Shown here: positions 828 through 19,819 of the stretch, in pieces | How the letters are laid out: the number at the start of each line of letters is the position of its first letter | Position numbering within the stretch: position 1 is the stretch's first letter | Assembly: GCA_025963635.1 (NCBI GenBank) | Contig: JAOQAK010000021.1 | Span: forward strand, 1 to 64,000 | From: Ferruginibacter sp. | GTDB lineage: Bacteria > Bacteroidota > Bacteroidia > Chitinophagales > Chitinophagaceae | Direction of reading: 5' to 3' | Length of the DNA: 64,000 bases | Program-made: the position numbers and the translations under genes | Notes under the pieces: model-generated | What the model saw: the letters and a program-made list of their open reading frames with translations, nothing else | The model's database searches: none | Told to the model about the DNA's origin: nothing

Positions 828-850
828 AGACTTATATTTAATTTGGCTAT

Positions 851-2165: not shown

Positions 2166-2196
2166 TGTCGACGAACGGGCAAAATATGGCGGTGAG
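2166..2196 (-). promoter_or_regulatory. Direct-repeat element, copy A
   Basis: As written on the plus strand, half-sites TGTCGACGAA (2166) and TGGCGGTGAG (2187) are 21 bp apart, with GGCA fixed at 12-15 bases after the first. Same architecture as copies B to K. It lies 298 bp upstream of the AKR ATG at 1867, farther than most copies. Confidence 0.65.
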
Positions 2197-2260
2197 CATT
2201 TTAAAACTAATAGTATCCTGAACTAACAATCAAATCAAATGTGGAACAGTAGTTTGAATG

Positions 2261-2366
2261 GTTTATTTCTTCCTGTATCATCTCACATCAAGCCGGGTAC
2301 TGTCCGTGCGTTAAAACAAATTGCCGATACCGAAAGATCGGCGTTTCCTTATTTTCTGTATTTCAT
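2261..2366 (-). pseudogene. Ghost 5' end of an aldo/keto reductase gene, copy 2
   Basis: The plus-strand sequence ending in CTGTATTTCAT (to 2366) reproduces the first codons of the intact AKR gene (1856-1867). The alignment continues weakly through about 35 codons to the TTTCTT-CTGTA segment, which matches TTTCTTTCAGTACC in the intact gene at 1767-1780. The rest of the gene is absent. It is a dead fragment, recognised from position and similarity, with no usable reading frame. Confidence 0.6.
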
Positions 2367-2657
2367 GTTATTTTACTTACTGTTAGATTTTACTAATAAT
2401 TGTAATAATTGAGTAAGTTCTTGCCGATCTTCTGCGATGATTCTTTTCTTTGCAGGTTATAAAAATGAGACCACGTAGAAATGCAGTCCCATTCCCAAAA
2501 CTAACTGCTAAAGAAAAAACTTTTCCATAGGGTAATTATCTATCTTTTTGATTTGATGTTGTGCTTGTAACCTTTGATATAAATGTTTCACTATTAACAT
2601 CATACAGTCAGGGTTCCATTTTACTTCTCAGGGATGCTATACCCTGTTAAGGGCTAG

Positions 2658-2688
2658 TGTTAACGAACAGGCAAAAAATGATGGTGAG
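2658..2688 (-). promoter_or_regulatory. Direct-repeat element, copy B
   Basis: Half-sites TGTTAACGAA (2658) and TGATGGTGAG (2679), 21 bp apart, with GGCA in the fixed central position. It sits about 292 bp upstream of the ghost start at 2366, the same spacing copy A keeps to the living AKR gene, so it is a duplicated promoter without a gene. Confidence 0.6.
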
Positions 2689-2716
2689 GTTATTAACACC
2701 GAAGTGCCTGGAACTG

Positions 2717-2808
2717 CTTTATTTCTTTCTGTACCACCTATTCCCGTCGGCAGTTCTCCAATGGCCAATACCTTAACATCCGGAACTTATAAATTTCCTG
2801 TATTCTAT
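2717..2808 (-). pseudogene. Ghost 5' end of an aldo/keto reductase gene, copy 3
   Basis: TTTATTTCTTTCTGTACCAC at 2718-2737 matches the intact AKR coding strand around 1767-1782. The stretch ends in AAATTTCCTGTATTCTAT, matching the gene's first codons with the start codon lost. It is more decayed than the ghost at 2261-2366. Confidence 0.5.
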
Positions 2809-3128
2809 ATTCTACTTTTAAAAAGGCTTTTGTTTATTTTTCAAGTAATTATTTTTGTTTTTTAAAAACCCCTGCAAACTCCTTTTCCTCTATAACAAGC
2901 CGAAAATTCGGGTAACATTCTGGATAAAGTTTGGAGATAAACTGGAACATTTTTAGATTTTTTTAAACCCCGATGCAGCCGGGCCTTCGATTTCCATTAC
3001 CAGGCCGGGGTGGTTCATTAATGCCAGTTATACCGGCACTCATTTAAACTTAGTATCCTGCGGAACATTACGGAGAGCGGGAGCGAAGCTAAAAATTTAG
3101 AAAGCCGCTTACATTCTTAGAAAGATTT
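2809..3128. other. Non-coding spacer
   Basis: About 320 bp between the AKR ghost units and the MBL-fold gene. It is T-rich at its left end. I see no convincing gene, hairpin terminator or regulatory element. Confidence 0.5.
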
Positions 3129-3971
3129 TTAAGATCTGATCAGTTTATCGACCGAAACTTCCATCCCTTCTTTTGCAAATATTGAATCAGGAAATACGTC
3201 CTGGCACGCCTTCTCCATAGCGTCAAGAAAATCATCATTGTGGTCCGGATCATGGTGCGTAATAATAAGTTTTTTCACTTTGGCCCGGAGAGCTACTTCA
3301 GCAGCATGTTCCCATGAACTATGCCCCCAACCTCTGTATTTTTTGTACTCATCTGCAGTATATTGTCCATCGTGAATTAGTAAATCAGCATTCTTAGCAA
3401 GGTTTACAATATTTTCATCTATTCCGTCTATATGTTCTACATCAGTGCATACCACAATTGAGCCTGACTGGTCCTCGATCCGGAAACCGTAAGAACCGCC
3501 CATGAACTTATGATGTTGAGGGATAGCTGTCACATTTGCTCCGTAAAATGTTTCCTTGTCTCCATAAGTTAAAAACTCAAATTCAGCTCCCATATTATCA
3601 GGTCCTACCGGGAAGTATTCTTTCTGCATTTGCATAAAAAAGACATCTTTTAAATTGTCGATTCTTCTTTGTTTGCCCATTACCAGAATTCCAATTTTTT
3701 GATTGTGGTTATAAGCCGGCGCAAAAAAAGGAAATCCCTGTATATGATCCCAATGAAAATGAGAAAATAAAATGTTTATCACATTTTGCTTTAGTCCCAT
3801 ATTTATTAAATCCTTCCCCAAATTCCGAATGCCTGTTCCTGCATCAATTATTACAATTCTATTGACGTCTTCACGGAATATCTTTAGGCAGGTTGTATTT
3901 CCGCCATATTTTTGAAAATCTTTACCACATATTGGTATCGAACCCCGTACCCCATAAAACTTAATTTTCAT
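3129..3971 (-). CDS. MBL-fold metallo-hydrolase
   Basis: A 280-aa protein of the metallo-beta-lactamase fold. The metal-binding signature HFHWDH is at residues 71-76, and further ligand-type positions are visible in CTDVEH and in the late ITHHDPDHNDD segment. The N-terminus MKIKFYGVRGSIP is typical of the PhnP/RNase Z-like, cyclic-phosphodiesterase-like branch. It should be a soluble di-metal hydrolase acting on a phosphodiester or similar bond; the substrate is not readable. It lies 137 bp downstream of the AKR at 4109-5125 and may be the last gene of that leftward unit, or have its own promoter. Confidence 0.85.
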   Translation of the reverse strand: MKIKFYGVRGSIPICGKDFQKYGGNTTCLKIFREDVNRIVIIDAGTGIRNLGKDLINMGLKQNVINILFSHFHWDHIQGFPFFAPAYNHNQKIGILVMGKQRRIDNLKDVFFMQMQKEYFPVGPDNMGAEFEFLTYGDKETFYGANVTAIPQHHKFMGGSYGFRIEDQSGSIVVCTDVEHIDGIDENIVNLAKNADLLIHDGQYTADEYKKYRGWGHSSWEHAAEVALRAKVKKLIITHHDPDHNDDFLDAMEKACQDVFPDSIFAKEGMEVSVDKLIRS

Positions 3972-4108
3972 TTATTCAAATTTTATAATTATTGAAATAG
4001 AAAGAAATACATCGGGTAACCATGTTTCTATGATTAAATCCATAAAGCCGGTTGCCCTTGAATGGATTCTATTTTTTCACAAAAACAATTTAAATGAAAA
4101 TTTTACTT

Positions 4109-5125
4109 CTATTTAATCGGGGCTTCTTCTGAAATCAGTTTTTCAACTTTTAGTTCTGCCCAAAAATCACGGGGTATTTTTACTTTCATTGATCCAACAT
4201 CTGCAGTTATTTGTTGCGCTGTTCTTGCGCCACAGAGAACCGCATCCACCACATCTGGCATAGCTGCAAATTGCAAAGCAGCCGTTCTTAGATCTACACC
4301 ATAGGCATCGGCTATAGCGCTTAAATGATCTCTTTTCGCAATAAATTCTGCAGGCATTTCGTGGCCGTAATTATATCGGTGGCTTCCGGAGATAAAACCG
4401 GCATTCAATGCGGACCCAATTACAAGCCTGATATTTTTTTTTCTTACTTCCGGAAAAATATTTTTTAATGCATATTCGTGATCAATTAATGAATATTGCG
4501 AAGCCAGCAAAAAAATATTGGGATCGGCTACCTCCATCGCAGCCCATATTGGTTCGGGCCTGTTCACGCCGAGTCCCCAGGCTTTGATCAAACCTTCTTC
4601 ACGCATACGGCTAAGTTCAGGAAAAGCACCTTGTTTTGCTATCTCAAAATGTTCCAGCCACTTCCCATCAAGCCATTTATTGTCGGGTGATAAGTCATGA
4701 ACGAAAACGATATCCAGGCTATCGATGCCCAGGCGCTGAAGGCTGTCTTCTATGGAACGGCGCACGGCAGCAGCCGAATAATCAAATTCTACCATGTTAG
4801 GTGAACCAGCCAATGGGAAAAGATTTGATTCAATTGCTTTTTTTGATGCTTTCAGCAGCTTGCCTACTTTAGATGAAATGACATATGCTGACCTGGTTTG
4901 ATTGTGCAGGAACTGTCCAAAGCGCCGTTCTGCCAAACCTAAGCCGTACCAGGGAGAAACATCGTAATAACGAACACCGGCATTCCAGGCCGCCTCTAAT
5001 GTTTGCTGTGCTTCGATATCTGTAACTGCGGTGAATTCGTTGCCAATTGGCACACCACCAAGGCCAAAATTGTAAGGAAGCCGATAATGATTCGATGGTA
5101 CTGATATTGTTTTTTCCTGTTTCAT
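4109..5125 (-). CDS. Aldo/keto reductase, D-threo-aldose dehydrogenase-like
   Basis: A 338-aa AKR of a different branch from the one at 851-1867. The opening LPYNFGLGGVPIGN and the segment VSPWYGLGLAERRFG resemble D-threo-aldose 1-dehydrogenase and pyridoxal 4-dehydrogenase types. The likely catalytic residues are D55, Y60, K86 and H143 (FVHDL). It should act on a sugar or pyridoxal-type aldehyde with NAD(P). It is third in a compact leftward unit (DUF4136 lipoprotein, OsmC, this gene) with gaps of 42 and 49 bp, so it is probably driven by the element at 6311-6341. Confidence 0.88.
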   Translation of the reverse strand: MKQEKTISVPSNHYRLPYNFGLGGVPIGNEFTAVTDIEAQQTLEAAWNAGVRYYDVSPWYGLGLAERRFGQFLHNQTRSAYVISSKVGKLLKASKKAIESNLFPLAGSPNMVEFDYSAAAVRRSIEDSLQRLGIDSLDIVFVHDLSPDNKWLDGKWLEHFEIAKQGAFPELSRMREEGLIKAWGLGVNRPEPIWAAMEVADPNIFLLASQYSLIDHEYALKNIFPEVRKKNIRLVIGSALNAGFISGSHRYNYGHEMPAEFIAKRDHLSAIADAYGVDLRTAALQFAAMPDVVDAVLCGARTAQQITADVGSMKVKIPRDFWAELKVEKLISEEAPIK

Positions 5126-5174
5126 ACTATTACTGTTTTAGACCGTATTATTTACATAGCAAATCCTATTCCCA

Positions 5175-5600
5175 CTAATCAAAGGCACTATTAAAAAATG
5201 TGCGGATTTTGATATTATTCTCTAAAATTTTTGAGATAGGGCAATGCTTTGCAATTTCCTTTAACCCTAATTTTTGTTCCTCATTAATAGGGCTGAGAAA
5301 TATTAGATTCCGGTCGATGATGGTGGTGGTTTTTTCATCTTTTGTTTCCTGGTAATAATTTGCATTTACTGCAATCTGCGGGATATCCCAACCCTTGCGA
5401 TCAATAAATGTTCGCATGGTAATCAAGGTGCAGGATGCAAGCGACGAAAGCAAAAGTGAATAAGGATCGGGACCCAAATCTTTTCCTCCGGAAGTTACAG
5501 GCTCATCGGCAATAAATTTTCCCTTTCGCCACTCAATAGTACATTGGTATTTTTCATTGCCGATGATACCGTAAACGGGAACATTAAATTTGTATTCCAT
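5175..5600 (-). CDS. OsmC family peroxiredoxin-like protein
   Basis: A 141-aa OsmC/Ohr-fold protein. The two conserved redox cysteines are visible as C57 (LASCTLITM) and C120 (KHCPIS). The family helix around GPDPYSLLLSSLASC is present. Members reduce organic hydroperoxides or hypochlorite-type oxidants in the cytosol. It lies between the DUF4136 lipoprotein and the aldose-dehydrogenase-like AKR in one leftward unit, which fits detoxification of oxidised or carbonyl compounds. Start at 5600 chosen because it is the first ATG after the upstream stop. Confidence 0.88.
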   Translation of the reverse strand: MEYKFNVPVYGIIGNEKYQCTIEWRKGKFIADEPVTSGGKDLGPDPYSLLLSSLASCTLITMRTFIDRKGWDIPQIAVNANYYQETKDEKTTTIIDRNLIFLSPINEEQKLGLKEIAKHCPISKILENNIKIRTFFNSAFD

Positions 5601-5642
5601 TTAAGATGCTTTTTATTTTTTATTAAGATTGTTGTAAAACGC

Positions 5643-6233
5643 TTACGAATTTGCTTTAGGTAAATTAAATTTTTTGAAAATAGAGGTAACATCAGTCTGC
5701 ATTTCCCGGGTTGACACTGTTTTACTGCTTACATCGCCCTGGGCCGAACCTTGCCAAATCAATTTGTTTGTTTTAGCATCGATCATATTCACAGTTAAAG
5801 TGCCTTGTTTGAAGGGAATATTATAGGTGCGGTATCCTAACAGGTCATTGGGATAATACATATAACCCCTTCTATGCCTCCATCTGCTATAATAATAATG
5901 CGTATAGGGATAACTGTAAACTGGTTCGGACTCCCGGGTAACTTTCTTTTCCACCATAACGTTGTAATCCAGTATAACATCAGGTTTTTGGGTTGTTTCC
6001 TTCCATCCCTTATTTTCCAACTGTGTGGTGATAGCGTTTTTGATATTATTGTCCACAATGTCATTGTCAACGGTATCTTCCTTCCTTTCCCCATTGGCAC
6101 TTGCCCAGCCAAAGGTTTGGTAATTGTTGAAGTTCACGCCTGCAGCTGTTTCGGAGTGTGTAGTAACTGAACAACTGGTTAAAAAGATGGCAAATACAAC
6201 TATTGCAAATAAGCTTGAAAAATACTTTTTCAT
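5643..6233 (-). CDS. DUF4136 domain lipoprotein
   Basis: A 196-aa protein with a lipoprotein signal (FAIFLTSCSVTT, lipobox cysteine near residue 21). A DUF4136-type body follows: the opening NYQTFGWA, and a late WQGSAQGDVSS where these proteins have the pattern W.G.a.g. Its function is unknown; it should be anchored to a membrane facing the periplasm or surface. It is first in a unit with OsmC and an AKR, and its start lies 77 bp from the direct-repeat element at 6311-6341. A second DUF4136 gene lies at 8784-9425 with the same element. Confidence 0.85.
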   Translation of the reverse strand: MKKYFSSLFAIVVFAIFLTSCSVTTHSETAAGVNFNNYQTFGWASANGERKEDTVDNDIVDNNIKNAITTQLENKGWKETTQKPDVILDYNVMVEKKVTRESEPVYSYPYTHYYYSRWRHRRGYMYYPNDLLGYRTYNIPFKQGTLTVNMIDAKTNKLIWQGSAQGDVSSKTVSTREMQTDVTSIFKKFNLPKANS

Positions 6234-6310
6234 TGTTTTGTTTTTAATTGTTTAATAGAATTTGTTTGTGTTGTAAAATTAATTTGGCAATCATTTGTTA
6301 TTCATTGGAT

Positions 6311-6341
6311 ATCGCTGAAAAGGCAACAACTGTCGGTGGCT
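6311..6341 (-). promoter_or_regulatory. Direct-repeat element, copy C
   Basis: Half-sites TATCGCTGAA (6311) and TGTCGGTGGC (6332), 21 bp apart, with GGCA between. It lies 77 bp upstream of the DUF4136 start at 6233 and directly after the stop of the next gene upstream. Confidence 0.7.
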
Positions 6342-6883
6342 CATATCCTGTTAACTGGCGTATCATTTATCATAATAATGAAGAGTGAATTTGTGTGTTG
6401 GTCATCCAGGTTAAAATCACCTGGGCTAAATCGAATATTCATGGACAGATTAAAATCGCCATCCAGTTCAGTGCCGTTTGGCAATGGCATATATTCAACC
6501 ATAACCTGTTTAGTTGTTCCGTTCAATGTCAGAAGACCATGCGTAACAAAGGTTTTGGCAGATGTCAGGTACTCCTGTATCTCGTGTGGGTCGATATTAA
6601 TTTTAAGGTTAAATGAAAAGCCCGGGGATGAAACCCCGGCATTATCTGCCGGATTATAATTTATTAAATGGCTAGGAATCCTTAGTCGTAGGTTTAGCTG
6701 GGTTGAGTTATTGGGGAGGGTTAAAATGGCTCCCTTCAATCTATTTTCAACACGGGTATTTTCGTTCACTTGCAGCACTACTGCATCTGCTGCCTGATAG
6801 GTGTTATGATCCTGCGCATTGCTACATTTAGCTATTAATAGCAATACGAGGAATATCCATCTGCAATTGATAGTATGATTCAT
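6341..6883 (-). CDS. Secreted protein of unknown function
   Basis: 180 aa with a Sec signal peptide (hydrophobic IFLVLLLIAKCSNAQ, likely cleaved after NAQ). The body is rich in beta-type sequence. The segment HGLLTLNGTTKQVMVEY loosely recalls the 'substance that suppresses / transport' fold of YceI proteins (a stretch of the type G.l.l.G..k.v). I do not assign it to YceI with confidence. It is second in a leftward pair, 43 bp after the 168-aa gene, and probably shares the element at 7508-7538. Confidence 0.7.
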   Translation of the reverse strand: MNHTINCRWIFLVLLLIAKCSNAQDHNTYQAADAVVLQVNENTRVENRLKGAILTLPNNSTQLNLRLRIPSHLINYNPADNAGVSSPGFSFNLKINIDPHEIQEYLTSAKTFVTHGLLTLNGTTKQVMVEYMPLPNGTELDGDFNLSMNIRFSPGDFNLDDQHTNSLFIIMINDTPVNRI

Positions 6884-6926
6884 AATTTAAAATTGAACAA
6901 TAAAATTCCTTTAAAAAGTAGGTGAG

Positions 6927-7433
6927 TCAATTACTGTCATCATTATTAATTGTTTTGTAAACAGGCAGCTTATAATTTATTTCGCAATCATCAACCTGGT
7001 AATCATACAGGTAAAAAGTAATATCCCATATATGATGTGGAACTGTTTTACCGGACCAGGTTTTATCTAACACAATTAGTCCCGTACAGGAACTTCGATT
7101 GTTCCTGTCGTTAATTATGCCTTCCACCGGGCATACCAACCCATCGTTGTTATAATCATCCAGGTCAATAACGCCGGAAGGGTAAATGTCTGCCTCAACG
7201 GCGACTCTTCCAGTATGGTGCGGGAACCAGCTGGAAGATACATGCCTGTTGGACGCCACCAGGAACTGCCAGGCGCCCTCAAGAAAAAATTTGCCTTTTT
7301 CAAAATCAATGCAAACCCGCATCAGCGGCTGGTGCTGCGCAACCAGGGAATGTTCTGTTTCAATCATTGAAGCATAAAAAGCCGCAGGCATAATTGTATA
7401 TTCAAAACACTGGAGTAAATTATTCTTTTCCAT
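6927..7433 (-). CDS. Uncharacterised protein
   Basis: 168 aa, with no signal peptide and no membrane segment. It has several acidic turns (DLDDYNNDG, YQVDDCE) and five cysteines. I do not recognise a family. It heads a leftward pair with the secreted protein at 6341-6883. Its start at 7433 lies 74 bp from the direct-repeat element, which supports both the start and its membership of the group of genes sharing that element. Confidence 0.65.
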   Translation of the reverse strand: MEKNNLLQCFEYTIMPAAFYASMIETEHSLVAQHQPLMRVCIDFEKGKFFLEGAWQFLVASNRHVSSSWFPHHTGRVAVEADIYPSGVIDLDDYNNDGLVCPVEGIINDRNNRSSCTGLIVLDKTWSGKTVPHHIWDITFYLYDYQVDDCEINYKLPVYKTINNDDSN

Positions 7434-7507
7434 AACAAGTAATTTATTGTCAAGTAACCTGGTTGCTTATGTAAACCTACATTACTGTATAAATCTAAAA
7501 GAGGGGC

Positions 7508-7538
7508 TGTCGTTGAACAGGCATGTGGAGTCGGTGAA
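7508..7538 (-). promoter_or_regulatory. Direct-repeat element, copy D
   Basis: The clearest copy: TGTCGTTGAA (7508) and AGTCGGTGAA (7529) are near-identical 10-mers exactly 21 bp apart, with CAGGCA between. It is 74 bp upstream of the ATG at 7433. Confidence 0.75.
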
Positions 7539-7716
7539 TGGCGCTGACAGGCCATGATTCGGAAAGACATTCATACCGCTTCACCAGGGAAATAACAAAG
7601 GCTGATCCCGCCAGGATCACAGGCTATTTCTTAATAAAGAAAAATTGATTCACAGCGACAAATTGATTAGCAGTAAATACCATACAACAGAATCATATAC
7701 TCTCCAATTCCCCCCC

Positions 7717-7743
7717 AAAAAAAAGGCCGGATAAAATCCGGCC
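7717..7743 (-). terminator. Rho-independent terminator
   Basis: Perfect 8-bp stem GGCCGGAT/ATCCGGCC with a 3-base loop, followed on the minus strand by eight T. It lies 30 bp after the 189-aa gene ending at 7774. Confidence 0.9.
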
Positions 7744-7773
7744 CGGTTTCATAGAATTCAGATTAACCAAAAC

Positions 7774-8343
7774 TTACTTCATGTTTGCAAAGAAAGAAAC
7801 TTCCCCTGCTAAATCTACTCTAACTACTATCGCTTTGTTATCATTTTTCAGCTCAGCAAAATAGTTGTTTGCATCAGCAAATGCGGTTCCATACAAAATC
7901 ATATCGGCATCATTGCTTTCATTGTCGTTAAATTCGATAACTCTGTTAATAGTGTAGCCTGCATACTTTTTGAGTATTTCCTTTTGCGCATTTTCGGGCA
8001 AATCAACAAAATCTTTTTTCCATGTGGTGCCCACCAGGTTACTGGTATTGTCATAATAAGCCCTTAGCTTTTTCTTACCTTCCATAAAAGTCATTTCCTC
8101 GAAGTCTTTTGTTTTTACATAATGAACATTTGTAGCGTCCACAAAATCAATTGCAAACTGTTTTTTTGTAAAATCACTTACTTCGTTGCGATACTCCGCC
8201 CGGCGTACCATGCGATGTTCTTTCCTGGCTTCCCTTTTTTCATTCCTTGATTCTTTGGGGTCTTTGCGATTCATATCACTGTGCGCAAATGTTACTGTAA
8301 CAGCCATCATTATTATACCGGCTGTAAAAAAAATCTTTTTCAT
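7774..8343 (-). CDS. Secreted protein of unknown function
   Basis: 189 aa with a Sec signal peptide (FFTAGIIMMAVTVTFAHS). It then has a highly charged linker rich in K, R and E (about residues 25-50) and a C-terminal domain of about 130 residues. No family recognised. The C-terminal part (DFVDATNVHYVKTKDFEEM...KLRAYYD) could be a small alpha/beta lipid- or peptide-binding fold, but that is a guess. It is a single-gene unit: an element lies 73 bp upstream (8417-8447) and a strong terminator 30 bp downstream. Confidence 0.75.
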   Translation of the reverse strand: MKKIFFTAGIIMMAVTVTFAHSDMNRKDPKESRNEKREARKEHRMVRRAEYRNEVSDFTKKQFAIDFVDATNVHYVKTKDFEEMTFMEGKKKLRAYYDNTSNLVGTTWKKDFVDLPENAQKEILKKYAGYTINRVIEFNDNESNDADMILYGTAFADANNYFAELKNDNKAIVVRVDLAGEVSFFANMK

Positions 8344-8416
8344 AATTACTGATTTTATTTGTTCTAAAATAATTAAGACACAAAGGTATTTACCTTACGG
8401 GGCCTCACTATCCATC

Positions 8417-8447
8417 AGTCGCTCAACGGGCACTTTTCTTCGCCCAA
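8417..8447 (-). promoter_or_regulatory. Direct-repeat element, copy E
   Basis: Half-sites AGTCGCTCAA (8417) and CTTCGCCCAA (8438) are 21 bp apart with GGCA between. It differs from the consensus in the same way in both halves (TCGCxCAA), which supports a two-site reading. 73 bp upstream of the ATG at 8343. Confidence 0.65.
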
Positions 8448-8677
8448 AAGGCATCTCCATCCCCTAACCCGGCTTATTCGAAGACACTAAAAAGCCCCCT
8501 AAGGAAAGTTATTCGGAGGCTCCATTAAAAACTTAAAAATATTTTTATCGAACTTTTTTATTGAGGTGTATCATTTGAAAACCAAAATGGTACCATCACA
8601 CGCCATTAATAAAATACCAATTATCAATTTCAGTAAAATCCAGGTTTCTCCGCAGGGGCGGAGACAAGGGGTCTCTC

Positions 8678-8708
8678 CTCACCGATACTTATTGCCTTTT
8701 TGGCGACA
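8678..8708 (+). promoter_or_regulatory. Direct-repeat element, copy J (opposite strand)
   Basis: On the minus strand it reads TGTCGCCAAA and TATCGGTGAG, 21 bp apart around GGCA, so it faces the rightward gene. It is 75 bp upstream of the ATG at 8784. It supports that start over an in-frame upstream start at 8700, which would fall inside the element. Confidence 0.7.
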
Positions 8709-8783
8709 ACCTTAAACAAAAGATATTATGTAAAAGCATTTTTGTGTAACAAACGATATTCTTTTTCAACAAATTATTTAATT

Positions 8784-9425: not shown

Positions 9426-9453
9426 ACTTTCAACAATTTTAAAAATAAAAACT

Positions 9454-10074: not shown

Positions 10075-10103
10075 GCAGCTATTCACACTCTATATAAATC
10101 AAC

Positions 10104-10138
10104 GAAACTGTCCCGGCGAAATGGGGCAGTTTCATTTA
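10104..10138 (+). terminator. Probable terminator hairpin
   Basis: Inverted repeat GAAACTGTCCC / GGGGCAGTTTC with an 8-base loop and one G-T pair. The following tract (ATTTAAT) is only weakly T-rich. It separates the barrel gene from the exporter gene. Confidence 0.6.
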
Positions 10139-10149
10139 ATGAAATCAAT

Positions 10150-11586
10150 ATGCTAAATAATTATACGGTTAATAAAAAAGCCTGCCTGCTTGTATTGCTG
10201 CTCGGCACTTCCATGGCTGCAATTGACAGCAGCATTGTAAACCTGTCATTACCGGTAATACGCCAGCAGTTCAGCAGCAACATTACGGAAGTACAGTGGA
10301 TATTGACTGCATATATGCTCAGCTTTTCTATTTTCGTTCCATTAACAGACTGGCTAAAGAACCGTATCGGCTTTTTTAATCTCTATATTGGCAGCACGGC
10401 TATTTTCACTATTGGGTCATTATTATGCGGCCTTTCTCCCAGCCTTCACTGGCTGATAGCAGCCAGGGTACTGCAGGCTGTTGGCGGCGGCGCCATTACA
10501 CCAACCGCACTGGCAATTATTGCTACCGTTTTTCCTGAAAAGGAAAGAGGCAAGGCGATGGGCATCTGGGGGTTGGGCATTGTAATGGGGCCTGCATTGG
10601 GGCCAACATTAGGCGGAATACTCACTCAACATTTTGGATGGCCTTCTATCTTTTTTGTTAACATTCCTATTGGCCTTGTTACCATATGGCTCTCCTATAA
10701 ACATTTACGGTTTCTTAAAGCAGAACAACCCAATAAAAAACCTTTTGACACAGCCGGCTTTATTTCCTTATCCGTGTTTCTTATAGTGCTCCAATATAGC
10801 ATTACAAAAATTGGAATTATCCCATTGTTTTCATTTACAGGTTTAACGCTAATGCTTTTATTTATTGGCAGTTTCATCTTCTTCTTTTATTCATCACGGA
10901 AACACCGCTCCCCATTACTTGACTTATCACTATTAACTAATTTCAAATTTGTAAACGGACTGGGTTTAACTTTTGTGCGTTCCGTTGCCATGTTTGGTGG
11001 ATTATTCCTGTTGCCCTTCTTATTACAAGATTATCTTGGTTATAGTGAAACAGCTTCCGGTCTTATTATTTTGCCGAATGCCCTTATGGTAGGTATTATA
11101 ATGCCCTTTGCAGGTAAATGGACTGATACACATGGATACCGTTCTGTTTCTATTGCCGGCTTAGCTGTGCTTGGAGTTTCTATGTTTATGTTTGCACAGT
11201 TGTACCCAGGCAATGCACTGTTCTTTGCCCTGTTAGCCATGTTATTGAGAGGAGCGGGATTCGGCATGCTGAATACACCGCTCACTGCTGCTGTCATCAG
11301 CGCTGTACCGAAGGAAAAAGTGGCGATGGCTTCTTCCATTAATACGTTGATCATTCAATTGAGCGGTGCTATAAGTGTTTCTGTAATTTCCTTAATTCAC
11401 CAGGTGCTTAATGATCGCTACATGGCGGAAGGGGCTACTGCAGCTCTTGCTGAGCACCGTGCGCTGCAAAATTGCTATTTGCTATCTGGTTTGCTTATGT
11501 TGATTGCGATTATCCCCGCGATGAAATTACCAGAAAAAAATAGAAAGCTTTTTAGTGGCAAACAAATACTAATGGATGCAGCCTGA
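10150..11586 (+). CDS. MFS transporter, DHA2 (EmrB/QacA) drug:H+ antiporter family
   Basis: 478 aa, with about 14 predicted membrane helices as in DHA2 exporters. The family N-terminal signature is visible as MAAIDSSIVNLSLPVI (helix 1). The A-type loop motif appears as DWLKNRIGFF, and the helix 5 antiporter motif appears as GIVMGPALGPTLGG. It should export toxic organic compounds across the inner membrane in exchange for protons. It follows a terminator hairpin and precedes the poxB remnant. No copy of the direct-repeat element was seen in the 75 bp upstream of it. Confidence 0.92.
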   Translation: MLNNYTVNKKACLLVLLLGTSMAAIDSSIVNLSLPVIRQQFSSNITEVQWILTAYMLSFSIFVPLTDWLKNRIGFFNLYIGSTAIFTIGSLLCGLSPSLHWLIAARVLQAVGGGAITPTALAIIATVFPEKERGKAMGIWGLGIVMGPALGPTLGGILTQHFGWPSIFFVNIPIGLVTIWLSYKHLRFLKAEQPNKKPFDTAGFISLSVFLIVLQYSITKIGIIPLFSFTGLTLMLLFIGSFIFFFYSSRKHRSPLLDLSLLTNFKFVNGLGLTFVRSVAMFGGLFLLPFLLQDYLGYSETASGLIILPNALMVGIIMPFAGKWTDTHGYRSVSIAGLAVLGVSMFMFAQLYPGNALFFALLAMLLRGAGFGMLNTPLTAAVISAVPKEKVAMASSINTLIIQLSGAISVSVISLIHQVLNDRYMAEGATAALAEHRALQNCYLLSGLLMLIAIIPAMKLPEKNRKLFSGKQILMDAA

Positions 11587-11633
11587 TCACTGGTTGAAAG
11601 TAATTATGAGTAAGAGAATTGAGCCTCCAAAAG

Positions 11634-11664
11634 GACAGCGATTGTTTTTGCCTGTTCGCCGATT
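11634..11664 (+). promoter_or_regulatory. Direct-repeat element, copy K
   Basis: Plus-strand CAGCGATTG, then TGCCTGTT at the fixed central position, then CGCCGAT. Read on the minus strand this gives the same two half-sites 21 bp apart around GGCA. It ends 69 bp before the ATG of the poxB remnant, so it survives in front of a dead gene. Confidence 0.65.
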
Positions 11665-11733
11665 TCGATTTGAATTGAAAATATGAATTGCAATCTTTGC
11701 AACTGAATTCGATACAAAACTCAATCTTATTTT

Positions 11734-12579
11734 ATGCCAACGACTATTGCAGAAAAATTTGTCGAAATATTGGTGCAGGCCGGTGTTAAACATATACACG
11801 GTGTGGTAGGCGATTCGCTCAATGGAATTACAGATGAATTACGTAAATCCGCTAAAATTAAATGGATACACTACCGCCATGAAGAAGCAGCGGCTTTTGC
11901 TGCAGGGGCCGATTTCACTTGCCGAAAAAATTTCATCACCAATAGTGCATGCCCTTAGGCCAGTGCTGATGCAATATTTACAACAGATGTAGGCACGCCA
12001 ACTGTTTGGGCGGCAAGGTACCTGGATATGAAAGCGGGAAGAAGGCTGATTGGCTCTTTCAACCATGGGTCAATGGCGAGCGCTATGCCGCAAGCTATCG
12101 GGCCACAACTGGCTTTCCCCGGAAGACAGGTAGTATCGCTTTCAGGCGATGGCGGTTTTGCCATGATGATGGGTGATATACTCACTATCTATCAATACAA
12201 TTTACCCATTAAAATTGTGGTGTATAATATTGGATCACTTGGTTTTGTGGCCATGGAAATGAAAGTAATTGGCATGCCGCCGTTTGGAACGGATTTAAAG
12301 TACCCCAACTTCGCAAAAATGGCTGAAGCCATTGGTATCATGGGCATCCGTGTAGAAAACTCAGAAGATGTACCGGTTGCAATAGAAAAAGCATTGGCAC
12401 ATGATGGCCCCGTTTTGATAGATGTGCTTACCAATCCCACCGAGCTGGCAATGCCACCCGGCATAAATATCGAACAGGCAAAAGGATTTGGAATCTACAT
12501 GATAAAACAAACCTTACTGGGTGATGGTGCTGAAGTTTGGGACACACTAAAAACAAAATTTTTTAAGCAAATAGATTAA
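11734..12579 (+). pseudogene. poxB: Pyruvate oxidase / pyruvate dehydrogenase (quinone) remnant, internally deleted
   Basis: Residues 1-60 match the N-terminal TPP-domain start of PoxB (AEKFVEILVQAGVKHIHGVVGDSLN, with the active-site glutamate in HEEAAAFAAGA). The frame then shifts. A short piece in another frame (LAEKISSPIVHALR) matches the central domain. A TAG closes the first frame at 11956-11958. From 11959 the original frame resumes with the C-terminal TPP-binding domain (TTDVGTPTVWAARY, GSFNHGSMASAMPQA, SGDGGFAMMMGD) to a normal C-terminus at 12579. About 320 of some 570 residues are missing in at least two deletions, so it cannot make a working enzyme. The intact family member decarboxylates pyruvate to acetate and passes electrons to quinone. 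Residual ORFs at 11734-11958 and 12028-12579 are pieces of this gene. Confidence 0.9.
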
Positions 12580-12718
12580 TAAAATAATTCCCGATTTATT
12601 TGTTATCATCAGCCCAATTTATTTTTTATTTGTATTGGGCATTGCCAATTACAGTCAGGTAATGCTTGTTTACGAGATGATAATAGAAGCAGGTCCGCCT
12701 GGTCCTAAACATTTTCCT

Positions 12719-13204
12719 TCAGCCCTTTCCGATAAACATTCCTGCCAGGAAAACAATCAAGCCACCTACCAATACCAGGAACAAGGTTTTTGCCAATGGA
12801 ATGTTCATATACTTGTGTCGTACCAGGGCTATTGCGAACAGCTCAACAGCTACAATAATAATTGCAAGTATCATAGCAACTGAAAATTGTGCAAATAAAA
12901 ATGGCAGTGTATGGCCGATGGCCCCGGCAAAAGTCATGAGGCCAGATGCAAAGCCTCGTTGCCAGGGATTACCACGGCCGCTCAGTTTGCCATCATCACT
13001 CAACGCTTCGGAAAAAGCCATGCTGATTCCCGCCCCTGCTGCAGTAGCCAGCCCAACAATAAATGTTGTATGTGTATTGTGTGTTGAATAAGCCGCAGCA
13101 AACAATGGCGCCAAAGAGGATACAGATCCATCCATCAAACCTGCAAGTCCTGGTTGAATGAGATGCAGCACCAAATTACGTTGGGTTGTTTCTTCAGTTA
13201 TCAT
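12719..13204 (-). CDS. VIT1/CCC1-family membrane protein (probable Fe/Mn transporter)
   Basis: 161 aa, almost entirely membrane segments (about 4-5 helices). The opening LIQPGLAGLMDGSVSSLAPLF matches the first helix of the VIT1/CCC1 family, close to the membrane half of MbfA-type ferritin-VIT proteins, where the conserved DG(S/A)VSS motif lies. No ferritin domain is attached. Family members move ferrous iron or manganese out of the cytosol, so a metal-detoxification role fits the stress-gene surroundings. Its start is 79 bp from the direct-repeat element at 13284-13314. Confidence 0.82.
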   Translation of the reverse strand: MITEETTQRNLVLHLIQPGLAGLMDGSVSSLAPLFAAAYSTHNTHTTFIVGLATAAGAGISMAFSEALSDDGKLSGRGNPWQRGFASGLMTFAGAIGHTLPFLFAQFSVAMILAIIIVAVELFAIALVRHKYMNIPLAKTLFLVLVGGLIVFLAGMFIGKG

Positions 13205-13535
13205 GGCGTCATTTGTTCTCTACGTTTGGCAATTATATATTTCATACACAAAAAAATTTTTATCCATCGCCCTGTAGTGAGCTTTTCGATAAAAAGGCAA
13301 AAAACTGTTAAACATATCCTGCAAGCGTAGCATTAAAAGGTGAGGTAATATAATAATCAGGATGTTCTTTCATGAAATCCTTATGAAAGTGGAGTGTTAG
13401 TCTTCCCTGCAAAGCCGCGTTATTAACATTTCACTGTAGAAGTGGCCTAACAAATCAATTAGCACCACAACTATTTTTTGTAACCAGTGTTGAGGTAAAA
13501 AATCACCAAAGCCTGTTGAGGTTATAAATATAAAA
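13205..13535. other. Spacer with element F, otherwise featureless
   Basis: 331 bp between the VIT gene start and the end of the hybrid kinase. It contains the element at 13284-13314. No gene or clear hairpin was seen elsewhere in it. Confidence 0.5.
13284..13314 (-). promoter_or_regulatory. Direct-repeat element, copy F (weak)
   Basis: First half TTTCGATAAA (13284) and central GGCA are in place. The second half CTGTTAAACA matches poorly, shifted by about one base. Located 79 bp upstream of the ATG at 13204, the same distance as the strong copies, which is the main support. Confidence 0.5.
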
Positions 13536-15746
13536 TCAATTTATGCCCTCCAGGTATTCTTTGGCCTCCCGAAAAGCCTGCATGCAAATTGTATTCACCA
13601 GCGCTATTTCGTCCTGCACGTAAATATTTTCATTCTGAATACCTGCATTGCCTTCAATATAATCCAGGTGAGGATCCATTATTTTTGTAAGGCCCATAAA
13701 TGATATAGAGGTTTTCAGGTTGTGTGCAATATGAGCAGCTTCAACATAGTTCTTTTTATTAAATGCTTCCTGCATGGCTTCTAATTCAGCAGGTACCTGT
13801 TGCAGGAATTGTTCTATCATGTTTACTTCAAATGCCTCGTTGCCACCGGAAATTTCCCTGAGGTAATCAAGATTCAGGAGTTTCACATTTTCACCAAGGT
13901 TGTCATCGTTTTCATTTCTTCTCCTAGTTGAACTACTATTACTTTTTAAAATGTCATTGACTATTTTAAACAATTCATTTTCACGGATAGGCTTCGAAAT
14001 ATAATCATTCATACCATAGCTTAAACATTTCTCCCTTTCTCCTGCCATGGCATGTGCTGTCATGGCAACAATAGGAATGTCATTTTTTAATTCATTCCTG
14101 ATTTTTTCTGTGGCACGATATCCATCGATTTGTGGCATCTGGATATCCATCAGTACCAGGCTGAAGTTTTTTTGCTTAAGCGCTTCAATGGCTTCCTCCC
14201 CATTACTAACAATATCAAAATCAAGATCCCAACCTGCCAGTAAATGTTTCATCAGGTTTTGATTCATGAGATTATCTTCAGCTACAAGTAATTTTATATT
14301 TTTTTTATTTAATTGTATTTGTTCTTTAGAAATAATTTGAAATTTATTATTCTCTGTTATCTCTTCTGAAATTATATAAGGAATAGTAAAAACGAATTCA
14401 GTTCCTTCGCCTGGTACACTTTTTACCCCAATCTTTCCTTTTTGCAACTCAACCAGTTGTTTAACAATAGCCAACCCAAGCCCCGTACCGCCATATTTAC
14501 GGGTTGTGTCTTCATCAACCTGCTGAAATCTGTCAAATATGGCATCTATTTTATTGCGGGGAATACCTATGCCGGTATCTTTTACAGCAAAAGCAATATC
14601 AATAGCCGCTTCCTTTTCACCAACTGTAGTTACCCGTATTTCAATAACGCCGGTATTAGTAAATTTCACGGAGTTATTTACCAGGTTCACTAAGATCTGT
14701 GTCAGGCGTATGGCATCTCCAATTAGTACATCGGGAATTGTATCTTCAACATTTACATTAAGCTGCAGGTTCTTTTGTTGAATTCTTGTCGCAAACATGG
14801 TTTCCACGGAATGCAGCAACCCCCGCAAACTGAAAGAGCTTGATTCAATCCGCATCATCCCGGCCTCTATCTTTGAAAAATCAAGTACATCATTTATAAT
14901 GGTTAGTAAATTTTCTCCGGAATTTCGGATTGAACTTACAAACTCTTTTGCCTTTTCATTTAATGGCTCTTTTTGCAACAAATTTGTAAAACCAAGAATG
15001 GCATTCATTGGAGTCCTAATCTCATGACTCATATTAGCCATAAAATTCTCTTTCATGATACCAGCTTCCCTCACTTTTTTTTCCGATTCATTTAATTGAT
15101 CATATAGTTGTTGTTGGCGTTTAATCTTTTTGCTGATATACCAAAACGTAAACATACATGTCAGCCCAGCTATAATAGCCAGAATAATTCCCCACTCTTT
15201 TGCACGATGGCCGCTTTTGTCAGCATCAATAGCCAATAGTGTTAGGTATTGTTGCCGCGGGCTGATCAATGAATCGATAGTGCTCACAATTTTCCCCATT
15301 GAGTTCCTTCCCTTCCGACTTTTGTACATCTCTTCTGCCGCAGATTGCCCTTTCATAAAAAGAGCAGCCAGGACATTATTGCCAAATTCCAGCTTCTCAT
15401 CAATCAACGAATCCAAATGCTGTATAAGACTTTTGGTACTGTCGGCTGCTATAAATGATTTCAGGTAAAAAAGTTCTGACCTGGCATTTTTCTCCTTATT
15501 CTGAATAGCCTTCAGATAGCTGGAATCTTCGCCAATAACTGCCCGGTGTATTTCGCTTTCTATATAAAGCATGTCCGTTTGCAATTTCTTCGTCGCACCA
15601 ATTATATGGAATTCGTTGATAAGCGACTCATTACCCTTTATGAGCTTATGGATATTGCGATTAGAATTATATTGAAGAAATACGATCAGTATAATCGTGG
15701 TAATAAAAATACCCATTAAATAAAGCATGAACCGTTTGTTGCGCAT
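13536..15746 (-). CDS. Hybrid sensor histidine kinase with receiver and HPt domains
   Basis: 736 aa. A membrane helix lies at about 8-25. A periplasmic helical sensor region follows at about 26-183, of the CHASE3/four-helix-bundle size. A second helix is at about 185-204 (WGIILAIIAGLTCMFTFWY). Then come a HisKA domain with phospho-acceptor H241 (MSHEIRTP) and an HATPase with N box LVNNSVKFT and G boxes DTGIGI and YGGTGLGL. A receiver domain has D534 (LMDIQMP), and a C-terminal HPt domain has H675 (AHNLKTS). It is thus a complete His-Asp-His relay that should hand phosphate to a separate response regulator. The small membrane protein gene lies 58 bp upstream and the pair shares the element at 16137-16167. 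The LytTR regulator at 17001-17696 is the nearest possible partner. Confidence 0.93.
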   Translation of the reverse strand: MRNKRFMLYLMGIFITTIILIVFLQYNSNRNIHKLIKGNESLINEFHIIGATKKLQTDMLYIESEIHRAVIGEDSSYLKAIQNKEKNARSELFYLKSFIAADSTKSLIQHLDSLIDEKLEFGNNVLAALFMKGQSAAEEMYKSRKGRNSMGKIVSTIDSLISPRQQYLTLLAIDADKSGHRAKEWGIILAIIAGLTCMFTFWYISKKIKRQQQLYDQLNESEKKVREAGIMKENFMANMSHEIRTPMNAILGFTNLLQKEPLNEKAKEFVSSIRNSGENLLTIINDVLDFSKIEAGMMRIESSSFSLRGLLHSVETMFATRIQQKNLQLNVNVEDTIPDVLIGDAIRLTQILVNLVNNSVKFTNTGVIEIRVTTVGEKEAAIDIAFAVKDTGIGIPRNKIDAIFDRFQQVDEDTTRKYGGTGLGLAIVKQLVELQKGKIGVKSVPGEGTEFVFTIPYIISEEITENNKFQIISKEQIQLNKKNIKLLVAEDNLMNQNLMKHLLAGWDLDFDIVSNGEEAIEALKQKNFSLVLMDIQMPQIDGYRATEKIRNELKNDIPIVAMTAHAMAGEREKCLSYGMNDYISKPIRENELFKIVNDILKSNSSSTRRRNENDDNLGENVKLLNLDYLREISGGNEAFEVNMIEQFLQQVPAELEAMQEAFNKKNYVEAAHIAHNLKTSISFMGLTKIMDPHLDYIEGNAGIQNENIYVQDEIALVNTICMQAFREAKEYLEGIN

Positions 15747-15804
15747 GGTATCTATGGTTTTTATTTTCTTTCTTTTTGTGCCGTAAGTTATTGCTTTAAA
15801 CAGG

Positions 15805-16011
15805 TTAGCTCATATACTTAACATACAGCCTGAACAGTGTAAAAATAGAAAATGCTGTCAAGATTATTAAATGAACAATAATAATTTTCAGTGCATGATA
15901 TTCAATTTCGTACAGTGTGAAATAAGTGAGTCCTATCATGACCAGTGTATTCAGAATAAATAATATGGTAAACTTTGTTTTCATAAGTTCCAGAACGGAT
16001 CGCATAGACAT
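15805..16011 (-). CDS. Small two-helix membrane protein
   Basis: 68 aa with two hydrophobic helices (FTILFILNTLVMIGLTYFTL and IIIVHLIILTAFSIFTLFRL) joined by a short loop with EIEYH. No family recognised. It lies 58 bp upstream of the hybrid kinase in the same direction and is the first gene after the direct-repeat element at 16137-16167 (125 bp). It may be an accessory of the kinase, but this rests only on position. Confidence 0.55.
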   Translation of the reverse strand: MSMRSVLELMKTKFTILFILNTLVMIGLTYFTLYEIEYHALKIIIVHLIILTAFSIFTLFRLYVKYMS

Positions 16012-16136
16012 CCAGTCCGTTAAATCAAAACAAACTGCCTATGCAAAAAAATGATTTTTTTAATATAGTATTGCTAAGTTTTCATCCGCCATTTTATGGT
16101 GTAAAATTGGATTATTAATATCATGCTACTGTTTAA

Positions 16137-16167
16137 AAACGACTAACAGGCAAAAAATGTCGTTGAA
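16137..16167 (-). promoter_or_regulatory. Direct-repeat element, copy G
   Basis: Second half TGTCGTTGAA (16158) is perfect and central CAGGCA is present. The first half is weak (only CG and AA kept). 125 bp upstream of the small membrane protein that precedes the hybrid kinase. Confidence 0.6.
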
Positions 16168-16270
16168 GAAGAATTATCTGCTGTCATTGTCATTCTGGCC
16201 GTTATCCTTATTTAATCATAGAGGGTCATCATATATTTTTTTCCGGCACTCGAATTGGATGATGCTTATC

Positions 16271-16537
16271 TCATTTCCGAAATAAGGTCCCGCAGCTGTA
16301 ACTGCCACGACTGTGTTCAGGAATTGCGGTATTAGAGCATGGAATGGTGCAACCTTCCGGAAGTGGCACCAACGAATAAAGAGCAGTGTACGCCTCTGTA
16401 ACTGCTGCATACCAGTTAGTAACACCTCCCACAAGGAATATTACGGTTGCTGTTGCTGCTGTAGTAAACACACTTCTACATGAAGTGTTCGAACCGAATT
16501 CTTTATTTCCTTTTGTTTGCTTGTTATCCATTTCCAT
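16271..16537 (-). CDS. Small uncharacterised membrane protein (tentative)
   Basis: 88 aa: a polar N-terminus of about 22 residues, one hydrophobic stretch (VFTTAATATVIFLVGGVTNWY), then a Cys- and Pro-containing tail with four cysteines. No family recognised. Two competing frames overlap it, so its reality rests mainly on an element-like sequence 59 bp upstream of its ATG and on the hydrophobic segment. The tail could be a frameshifted end. Confidence 0.4.
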   Translation of the reverse strand: MEMDNKQTKGNKEFGSNTSCRSVFTTAATATVIFLVGGVTNWYAAVTEAYTALYSLVPLPEGCTIPCSNTAIPEHSRGSYSCGTLFRK

Positions 16538-16596
16538 TCTTTTATTATTTTTTTATCATGGTTTGAAGGTAAAACTATCAAGACCTGTCTCCACCG

Positions 16597-16626
16597 AAAA
16601 ACGATTAGGGCATAACTGTCGCCGAA
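16597..16626 (-). promoter_or_regulatory. Direct-repeat element, copy H (weak)
   Basis: TGTCGCCGAA at 16617 is a good second half. GGGCA lies one base closer than in other copies and the first half is poor. 59 bp upstream of the ATG at 16537. Confidence 0.4.
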
Positions 16627-19804: not shown

Positions 19805-19819
19805 AAAACATTTAAAATT

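Follow-up and report, generated by a model that had tools for sequence, protein, structure and literature searches.

A direct-repeat operator phased with the -7 box marks a putative LytTR stress circuit in Bacteroidota

Analysis of a 64,000-nucleotide stretch of a Ferruginibacter sp. genome (contig JAOQAK010000021.1, positions 1 to 64,000; hereafter the window) revealed a 31-bp element, consensus TTCGgTGAAcaGGCAAAAnnnnTCGTTGAA, which is very probably the binding site of a REC-LytTR response regulator encoded in the same window, as suggested by its occurrence at the same promoter distance and beside the same regulator gene in several relatives. We are confident in reading it as operator DNA for a LytTR activator, which would be driven by a hybrid-kinase phosphorelay and control a compact stress regulon, with binding, phosphorelay, activation and stress signal all predicted from sequence. 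The operator has a fixed register, keeps an exact phase to a -7 box and co-occurs with the regulator gene, which is itself conserved in its pairing with the kinase. The general stress response of Bacteroidota is poorly understood, most of them not being known to have RpoS or sigma-B, and few transcription-factor motifs are known in the phylum, across which the combination of operator, regulator, kinase and targets defined here turns up patchily.

The original prediction had listed ten such sites, with direct repeats 21 bp apart in eight of them, had given their distances from start codons and had seen none by eye at 17-64 kb. We rescored the window with an independent matrix of 61 non-redundant sites from other named bacteria, containing zero window letters (Table 1). 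Seven of the ten sites scored 22.0-34.7 bits, against a next best of 11.3 bits in the 64 kb and a best score of 17.1 among 30 simulated windows, and the same scan found no further site at 17-64 kb, as predicted. The sites at 2166 and 2658 lie within one duplicated segment of ~370 bp, so the independent strong window sites number six. Of the other three, the site at 16597..16627 (+) was rejected, its repeat spacing and GGCA being out of register (-36.9 bits); 13284 is a half-site with the first repeat and GGCA present and the second repeat missing, giving a partial match (E 0.027) to model R2, described below; and 8417 is probably a real, degenerate operator, since it keeps GGCA and the exact -7 phase and has a strong counterpart in congener G092, where a 29.1-bit site occupies the same place before a gene similar to 7774-8343 (protein kinship judged by eye). 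In all seven strong sites the repeats stand 21 bp apart (TCG to TCG) with GGCA in register. Nowhere in the window is an exact TGTCG, the word that opens both repeats as originally written, followed by a second one at 21 bp. The motif and the gene it serves are on opposite strands, and the claimed distances were largely borne out, the first ATG ORF lying 69-79 bp from the motif edge for 8678, 6311, 11634, 7508 and 13284, 125 bp for 16137 and 298 bp for 2166; for 2658 there is no ATG ORF within 400 bp of the motif edge. The 8678 operator perhaps also serves the gene that follows DUF4136 ORF 8700-9425.

Table 1. Operator sites in the window, with their -7 boxes, and the regulator and kinase genes (bits for sites refer to the matrix without window letters; offsets are between operator and -7 box)
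Feature	Coordinates	Strand	Context or domains	Score	-7 box	Offset
Operator	2166..2196	+	Upstream of aldo-keto reductase 851-1867(-)	33.0 bits	TAGCTTTA, ~2116-2109	49 bp (28+21)
Operator copy	2658..2688	+	Diverged duplicate of 2166 operator	22.0 bits	No in-phase box	
Operator	6310..6340	+	DUF4136-OsmC-AKR unit, 6233 to 4109, minus strand	26.8 bits	TAATTTTA	28 bp
Operator	7508..7538	+	Uncharacterised pair 6927-7433(-) and 6341-6883(-)	30.5 bits	TAGGTTTA	28 bp
Probable degenerate operator	8417..8447	+	Secreted protein 7774-8343(-); GGCA kept	Only 1.7 bits	TACCTTTG	Exactly 28 bp downstream
Operator	8678..8708	-	DUF4136 gene, ORF 8700-9425(+), likely ATG 8784	30.3 bits	CATTTTTG	28 bp
Operator	11634..11664	-	Before TPP-enzyme (poxB-like) remnant, longest listed piece 12028-12579(+)	26.9 bits	AATCTTTG	27 bp
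Half-site	13284..13314	+	Before VIT-family gene piece 12719-13204(-)	3.9 bits		
Operator	16137..16167	+	Upstream of hybrid kinase gene	34.7 bits	AATTTTAC	28 bp
Hybrid histidine kinase	13536-15746	-	CHASE3-HisKA-HATPase-REC-HPt (Pfam)			
Response regulator	17001-17696	-	REC-LytTR (Pfam)	Response_reg 84.5 bits, LytTR 70.6 bits		

Read in the direction of the gene, the operator is TTCAACGAC-nnn-TTTTGCC-tg-TTCACCGAA, that is, two half-sites 21 bp apart with a TTTTGCC core between them. The 21-bp period also appears in the consensus of unique non-window sites, where the spacing is fixed by the matrix; a spacing of 21 bp in 11/11 overlapping matches was discarded, the matrix resembling itself at shift 21. 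The published LytTR half-site consensus is [TA][AC][CA]GTTN[AG][TG], which ATCGTTGAA fits only in part: aligned by eye in one way, it agrees at about 6 of the 8 fixed positions. A -7 box TAnnTTT lies at an offset of exactly 28 bp at 124 of 207 non-window sites and 44 of 81 non-redundant ones (183/207 and 59/81 for the looser.A..TTT), the chance of TA..TTT at any one fixed position being 0.0026 and other offsets up to 97 giving it at no more than 5 of the 81; here and below, counts of 175, 207, 215 and 199 sites include close relatives, and 61 and 81 denote non-redundant sets. Since the downstream edge of the operator lies 28 bp from the -7 box, the operator spans about -41 to -71, a class II activator position. 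TTG at -33 is rare (23/207 sites at the best offset). The operator together with its exact -7 phase provides a search pattern for Bacteroidota regulons.

The spacer GGCAAAA carries 1.2-1.95 bits per position among unique non-window sites. When the core columns were masked, GGCA was still present in 170 of 193 matches with a phased -7 box (187 at up to one mismatch), against 8 of 67 matches without the box, close relatives being kept in; core conservation is therefore more than an artefact of site-finding. To our knowledge the spacer between LytTR repeats is not conserved, from which the core here departs, and we know of no TTTTGCC-like core in known LytTR sites. What the element suggests is a LytTR operator whose two repeats enclose a conserved core. 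More tentatively, the circuit may be an undescribed Bacteroidota stress phosphorelay in which TTTTGCC serves as a third recognition element, read by LytTR or by a partner, in place of the -33 element. The enrichment of GGCA would also suit a LytTR protein that binds and represses, or that acts with a second protein reading the core, and position alone is no proof of activation. We nevertheless find this alternative rather doubtful, as the fixed 28-bp phase and the rarity of -33 TTG fit an activator replacing the -33 contact, and as the sites of Cnuella and Paracnuella keep the half-sites and the phased -7 box despite a changed core (two cases; the best sites of these genera and of Niastella score 17-19 bits).

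The element recurs well beyond the genus. Scanning 80 loci of named bacteria, fetched by the LytTR protein alone, with a matrix of eight window sites gave 175 matches of at least 20 bits, where the reversed matrix gave 0 (190 against 1 at 18 bits, 239 against 19 at 14 bits). Matches of at least 20 bits were found in 72 of these loci, from Chryseobacterium, Flavobacterium, Pedobacter, Sphingobacterium and Dyadobacter, and in the other eight there was none at that level. Of 215 sites of at least 18 bits, 206 had a downstream ORF that reads from the other strand than the motif, starting 60-89 bp from the site in 168 of the 206, and same-strand ORFs, present at 127 of the 215, showed no preferred distance. 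The system is patchily distributed from Chitinophagaceae to Chryseobacterium, which makes the circuit testable in a cultured type strain; in the class sample 4 of 295 genomes had a strong site, and the best two, G136 and G289, appear to be the genomes of L200 and L199, both sources of R2 training sites.

Model R2 comprises the operator and the -7 box and was trained on sites including three from the window, one from contig C50 of the same genome and others from six congeners. The genome-wide scan proposed with the original prediction, run with R2 over the 6.6 Mb of the genome at E<=0.05, returned 11 matches, of which the window holds seven, C50 three and C93 one, all of them outside likely genes (ORF lists read by eye); the 8678 match overlaps only the TTG-extended start of its ORF. 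Across 12 named genomes, 26 of 28 R2 matches at E<=1e-5 lay no more than 20 kb from the regulator gene, a count that excludes two rows at 1.1e-5 (G418, G408), takes G418:C153 as near the regulator, its sequence matching L133, and ties G408 to L131 by sequence, the other ten genomes being tied by coordinates only. The regulon in named relatives is mostly a local island. Looser searches were set aside: a scan of the own genome for the pattern, as many as 3 mismatches being allowed (79 matches vs 42 for the reversed pattern), a pattern search of 59 relatives (matches mostly chance-like), the window-trained model R1 at E<=1 (87 of 93 genomes matched, mostly by chance, its best matches alone being used) and R2 at E<=0.05 (50 of 93 congeners and 123 of 295 class genomes, many by chance). 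The cut-off adopted for R2 was E<=1e-5, with E<=1e-3 in one further class-sample test.

The original prediction had tentatively attributed co-regulation of these genes to the LytTR regulator at 17001-17696, and had named co-variation of the motif with a LytTR or other regulator as a check. Among 93 congeners, 12 had both site and regulator, 1 the site only, 3 the regulator only and 77 neither (Fisher p 1.4e-11, kinship ignored); with the own genome and the six R2-training congeners left out, the cells were 5, 1, 3 and 77 (p 9e-6, kinship ignored). The regulator-only cell includes G023, a partial match (67% over residues 28-160), and the site-only genome, G092, is 69% complete and carries a kinase homologue on its 5.9-kb site contig. 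At an orthologue cut-off of 45% and with the own genome excluded, 11 of 92 had both, 1 the site only and 7 the regulator only. With R1, the six best outside genomes all possess a regulator orthologue (p 4e-6), at a cut-off chosen on the list itself (E<=0.0194). Congeners that have no strong site commonly carry LytTR homologues of 32-43% identity; the motif tracks this LytTR orthologue, not LytTR genes generally. Outside the genus, 293 class-sample genomes, with sites at E<=1e-3 and LytTR homologues counted at E<=1e-55, comprised 7 with both, 3 with the site only, 30 with the homologue only and 253 with neither; weak matches near 43-50% LytTR homologues were picked by eye, with no control. The co-occurrence and the named LytTR loci strongly support the proposed co-regulation, in which direct binding by the regulator would be the connecting step.

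Another transcription factor, merely co-resident in the island, could bind the element instead: TTTTGCC is no usual part of LytTR operators, its positions are constrained as strongly as those of the half-sites, and some genomes with a regulator orthologue have no strong site (congeners G100, G082 and G023, regulator identity 52-67%, and class-sample genome G225, 63%). In G248 a strong site precedes a receiver-domain operon, and the only LytTR homologue, 44% identical, lies elsewhere. This explanation is unlikely, because the co-occurrence is specific to this LytTR orthologue, because among seven gene families checked the regulator and kinase alone were present in 80/80 named loci (fetched by the regulator), and because no second shared regulator was noticed in two loci read by eye (ORFs of at least 130 aa). 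LytTR proteins, according to the part of the source available, bind immediately above the -35 region to direct repeats of 9 bp separated by a 12-bp spacer (PMC6193735), which also speaks for the LytTR regulator.

A kinase homologue lies within 1.5 kb of the LytTR gene at 93 of 98 loci, and the DNA fetched for L083 and L084, which are among the closest congeners, and for L095 and L097 showed none. The hybrid kinase at 13536-15746 is likely the partner and phosphodonor of the LytTR regulator. With a LytTR activator as the preferred reading, the kinase would donate phosphate to REC-LytTR through its REC and HPt domains, upon which two phosphorylated LytTR monomers would bind the repeats head to tail; the bound protein would contact and recruit sigma-A polymerase at promoters mostly without a -33 box, and the genes so controlled, for Dps-like ferritin, cupin, OsmC, DUF4136 and the kinase, would make up a compact stress regulon. 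Solved structures for the LytTR domain yielded only one distant chain, 3d6w.

Operator, regulator and kinase very probably mark a small stress-response circuit. Dps-like genes make up 60 of 199 targets, and the six that head the list begin 79-83 bp below their sites; two loci read by eye have a Dps-like gene and then the regulator gene at 66-67 bp. Most named relatives carry a Dps-like ferritin gene followed by regulator and kinase, and also a cupin/hydrolase cluster. Of 18 loci fetched from the genus of the window, 17 lack the Dps gene, as does the window itself, and the own-genome targets, spread over three contigs, are OsmC, aldo-keto reductases, DUF4136 proteins and others.

The system resembles AgrA-type LytTR activators of Firmicutes (AgrA, PMC4227749; HdrR and relatives, PMC6193735), as described in the accessible parts of these papers: the LytTR DNA-binding domain is common to both, two direct repeats lie just above -35/-33 in both, centred at about -60 for AgrA and about -56 here, and the 9-bp repeats and 12-bp spacer of HdrR-type sites give the same 21-bp period. 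Unlike those sites, the operator here has a different half-site core and a conserved TTTTGCC block in its spacer, its partner kinase is a hybrid with HPt (and CHASE3 in the window), and its targets are genes of stress type, where those of the Firmicutes systems serve bacteriocin production or quorum sensing. In the same phylum, the 'LRS-like' LytTR operons of Bacteroides have direct repeats that begin with (T/A)CCGG and sit 11 bp above a promoter of the form TGTA-19-TATCTTTG, with presumed autoregulation; they differ in having 11-bp repeats, an 11-bp spacer and another sequence, and their LytTR protein has membrane segments and an NfeD/DUF2154 partner, with no response-regulator receiver described in the available portion of that paper (PMC6193735). 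In Flavobacterium johnsoniae LytTR mutations have been reported, the accessible text giving no target genes (PMC10197871). Our search of open papers, with subscription papers and preprints outside it, found no description of the operator or its regulon.

The -7 box TAnnTTT, at -12 to -5, is also that of Flavobacterium psychrophilum sigma-A promoters, as far as the excerpted source goes, except that the last base here is usually A, not G (PMC9723704). That base is A in 0.87 of 215 sites (59 A and 9 G among the 81 non-redundant ones), and the window boxes use both TTTG and TTTA. Sigma-A promoters of F. psychrophilum have a -33 TTG, which is mostly missing at the operators here. The prevailing A might make the element part of an alternative-sigma promoter, which is highly improbable, as the 28 bp between the end of the conserved block and the -7 box are too great a distance for sigma to make its -35/-33 contact there, and both endings occur among the window copies.

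The operator is conserved in other promoters, a check that the original prediction had set, with 74-90% identity against 22-58% in the flanks for four between-genome pairs (ungapped comparison). In L130 and L131, too, a site precedes the kinase gene, 84-90% identical to 16137 where the flanks reach 22-44%, and a similar DUF4136 promoter in G071 (L082) matches 8678 at 77% in the motif, 25% upstream and 58% downstream. The 6310-type operator also occurs in a paralogous DUF4136 promoter on C50 and in the OsmC promoter of L131, a pair not strictly orthologous because L131 is without the DUF4136 gene in front, and the 7508-type operator also precedes a paralogous gene pair on C50. A mobile or duplicated repeat with no regulatory role, to which the duplicated segment holding 2166 and 2658 and the 75% similar upstream flank of the C50 copy before DUF4136 might point, can in our view be set aside as already refuted by fixed phase and strand: the six strong window sites are alike only within the 31 bp, where pairwise identity averages 0.66 compared with 0.26 upstream and 0.29 downstream, the element is kept in the promoters of other genomes, gene strand and distance are fixed, and Rfam over 1-18500 gave no RNA family. 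A third half-site in register (+42) is present at 4 of the 81 non-redundant sites, each of the other shifts tested giving 0-1 of 81 and a shift of -21 none.

To examine the original prediction of ten 31-bp sites with two direct repeats (21 bp apart in the eight clear copies) and a fixed GGCA, a matrix was built from 61 non-redundant sites of named relatives with zero window sequence. Seven of the ten passed, scoring 22.0-34.7 bits, the next-highest score anywhere in the 64 kb being 11.3 bits and the top score in 30 simulated windows 17.1 bits; 8417 (1.7 bits) and 13284 (3.9 bits) failed, as did 16597 (-36.9 bits), which was dropped. Site 13284 retains one repeat and the core (GGCA, within TTTTGCC on the gene strand). 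Since the -7 box of 8417 stands at the exact phase, and congener G092 carries a 29.1-bit site at the equivalent place with a similar secreted-protein gene (protein kinship judged by eye), 8417 is probably a degenerate site. Sites 2166 and 2658 are copies inside one duplicated segment, and the window therefore holds six independent strong sites.

Judged by sequence, the element is evidently not a copied repeat. Mean agreement among the six strong window sites was 66% over the 31 bp; in the flanks it was 26% (80 bp upstream) and 29% (27 bp downstream). In ungapped comparisons between genomes, the motif and flanks agreed by 84-90% and 22-44% for kinase promoters, by 77% and 25% (upstream) or 58% (downstream) for the DUF4136 promoter, and by 74% and 30-36% for the OsmC promoter, a pair of genes that are not orthologues in the strict sense. 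On contig C50 of the window's own genome, the gene pair gave 58% for the motif and 30-41% for the flanks; at the C50 copy before DUF4136 the motif agreed by 81%, yet the upstream (75%) and downstream (59%) flanks were similar too.

In gene direction the element reads TTCAACGAC-nnn-TTTTGCC-tg-TTCACCGAA (the complement of the site consensus). On the opposite strand from the motif, 206 of 215 sites have a downstream ORF, starting 60-89 bp away in 168, and ORFs on the motif's own strand occur at 127 of the 215 with no distance preference. Of 207 non-window sites, 124 have a -7 box (TA..TTT) at offset 28 (44/81 after redundancy removal) and five have it at offset 49 (28+21), while each remaining offset up to 97 accounts for at most four; offsets 98 and 99 (9 and 14 sites) lie past most start codons. 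Its final base is A at 87% of 215 sites (59/81 non-redundant), and at loci L130-L209 the box mostly ends TTTAC, not sigma-A TTTG. A -33 TTG is rare (23/207 at the best offset). In F. psychrophilum the -7 box lies at -12 to -5 (PMC9723704); on that scale the element spans about -41 to -71. When the core was masked in the search, GGCA was found in 170 of 193 matches with a phased -7 box versus 8 of 67 without one; the core between the repeats is therefore truly conserved. Genuine third half-sites in register are rare (4 of the 81 non-redundant sites at +42, none at -21). Overlapping operator matches 21 bp apart were seen in L145, L146, L147, L150, L167, L172, L187, L188, L190, L193 and L204.

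Domain search identified in the window a REC-LytTR regulator and a CHASE3-HisKA-HATPase-REC-HPt kinase. A matrix of eight window sites was used to scan 80 loci of named bacteria, fetched with the regulator protein alone, which returned 175 matches of at least 20 bits versus 0 for the column-reversed matrix, and 239 versus 19 at 14 bits or more. A match of at least 20 bits was present in 72 of the 80 loci, including Chryseobacterium, Flavobacterium, Pedobacter, Sphingobacterium, Epilithonimonas, Dyadobacter and Chitinophagaceae. Of 98 loci, 93 carry a kinase homologue no more than 1.5 kb from the regulator; in four, none was found within the fetched DNA.

The predicted co-variation of site and LytTR gene was borne out in 93 congeners: 13 had a strong site, 15 a regulator orthologue (at least 51% identity, one partial match included) and 12 both, counting genomes as independent and ignoring kinship. 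Strong sites were called at E<=1e-5 with R2, a model of operator plus -7 box whose training included three window sites and one C50 site. The site-only congener, G092, is 69% complete, and its 5.9-kb site contig also carries a kinase homologue. R2 training sites came partly from six of the congeners; without these and the window's own genome, 5 had both, 1 the site only, 3 the regulator only and 77 neither. With the window-trained model R1, the six best outside genomes all had the orthologue, using a cut-off chosen from that same ranking. Across 295 genomes sampled from the class, R2 reached E<=1e-5 only in the window's own genome (G000), G136 and G289 (regulator identity at least 53%) and G248 (a 44% homologue); G136 and G289 seem to be the genomes of L200 and L199, both in the training set. 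Weaker R2 matches, picked by eye with no control, lie near 43-50% LytTR homologues in G179, G368, G372, G394 and G334. Counting against the link, G100, G082, G023 and G225 have the regulator and no strong site.

Behind non-window sites, close relatives included, lie 199 genes, grouped by shared 3-mers with one or two members identified per family: Dps-like (60; Pfam Ferritin, Dps being our reading), two-domain cupins that we read as like oxalate decarboxylase (53), a family without Pfam match (35), alpha/beta hydrolases (11), the kinase (4), peroxiredoxins (3, at longer distances of 96-260 bp) and others (33). One Chryseobacterium and one Pedobacter locus, read end to end, share an arrangement: a site stands first, and the Dps-like gene, the regulator and the kinase come next. 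Further genes follow, and then a second site, which precedes the cupin in Chryseobacterium and what we read as a peptidase-like gene in Pedobacter. The Dps gene is present in 66 of 80 named loci and in 1 of 18 loci of the window's genus. Of 28 strong matches in 12 named genomes, 26 fall within 20 kb of the regulator, so the regulon there is mostly a local island. R2 matches in the window's genome lie at seven places on the window's contig (C18), three on C50, before a paralogous gene pair, a DUF4136 unit and a cupin, and one on C93.

AgrA uses direct repeats near -60 (PMC4227749), and LytTR direct repeats of 9 bp with a 12-bp spacer are described (PMC6193735). Like these activators, the element has direct repeats above a promoter; the tested defining features of LytTR activators are found here, save the unconserved spacer, the core here being conserved, and the published half-site consensus, which is matched only in part (about six of eight fixed positions in one reading by eye). 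The LRS-like operons of Bacteroides (PMC6193735) have other repeats, another spacer and another type of protein. A search of the open-access literature yielded no description of the operator or regulon. The analysis establishes the operator (repeats, register and phase), its association with the regulator and the pairing of regulator and kinase. In the predicted mechanism, a phosphorelay would start from the REC and HPt domains of the kinase and reach the regulator, which would bind cooperatively head to tail and activate sigma-A polymerase from a class II position. Positive feedback would arise where a site stands before the unit of Dps, regulator and kinase genes or before the kinase gene. 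The input may be a stress signal, as suggested only by the kind of controlled genes.

Coordinates of the signalling genes and of further islands, remnants and operators
Feature	Sequence	Position	Observation
Regulator gene	window	17001-17696(-)	
Kinase gene	window	13536-15746(-)	
poxB-like remnant	window	12028-12579	C-terminal TPP-enzyme domain only; behind an operator
VIT-family piece	window	12719-13204	best stretch matches the final 84 of the profile's 214 positions; behind a half-operator
Second, paralogous stress-type island	C50 (L031)	2593-8426	three operators; gene pair, DUF4136-like, 2-hydroxyacid dehydrogenase, OsmC-like (by eye), cupin, DUF1275 protein
Operator	C93 (L262)	about 5188-5253 (G000:C93:98187-98252)	phased -7 box; no clear gene behind, nothing but a 34-aa ORF and, ~600 bp on, a sigma-70-type (ECF-like) gene; possibly serves a small RNA or small protein
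Strong operator and genes behind it	G248 (L264)	2926-6931	followed by four small genes of receiver-domain type (by eye) and a related hybrid kinase (38% identity), as though the operator had been acquired by a second signalling operon
Half-site pairs 21 bp apart	L137; L141; L143	6394; 4481; 13364	core altered, no phased -7 box; perhaps drifted operator versions in other lineages
HipA-like gene	window	19478-21051	split into several ORFs; small ORF before it has no Pfam match; looks like a decayed toxin-antitoxin-like module
HipA N-terminal domain	window	19820-20089	
HipA C-terminal domain	window	20148-20831
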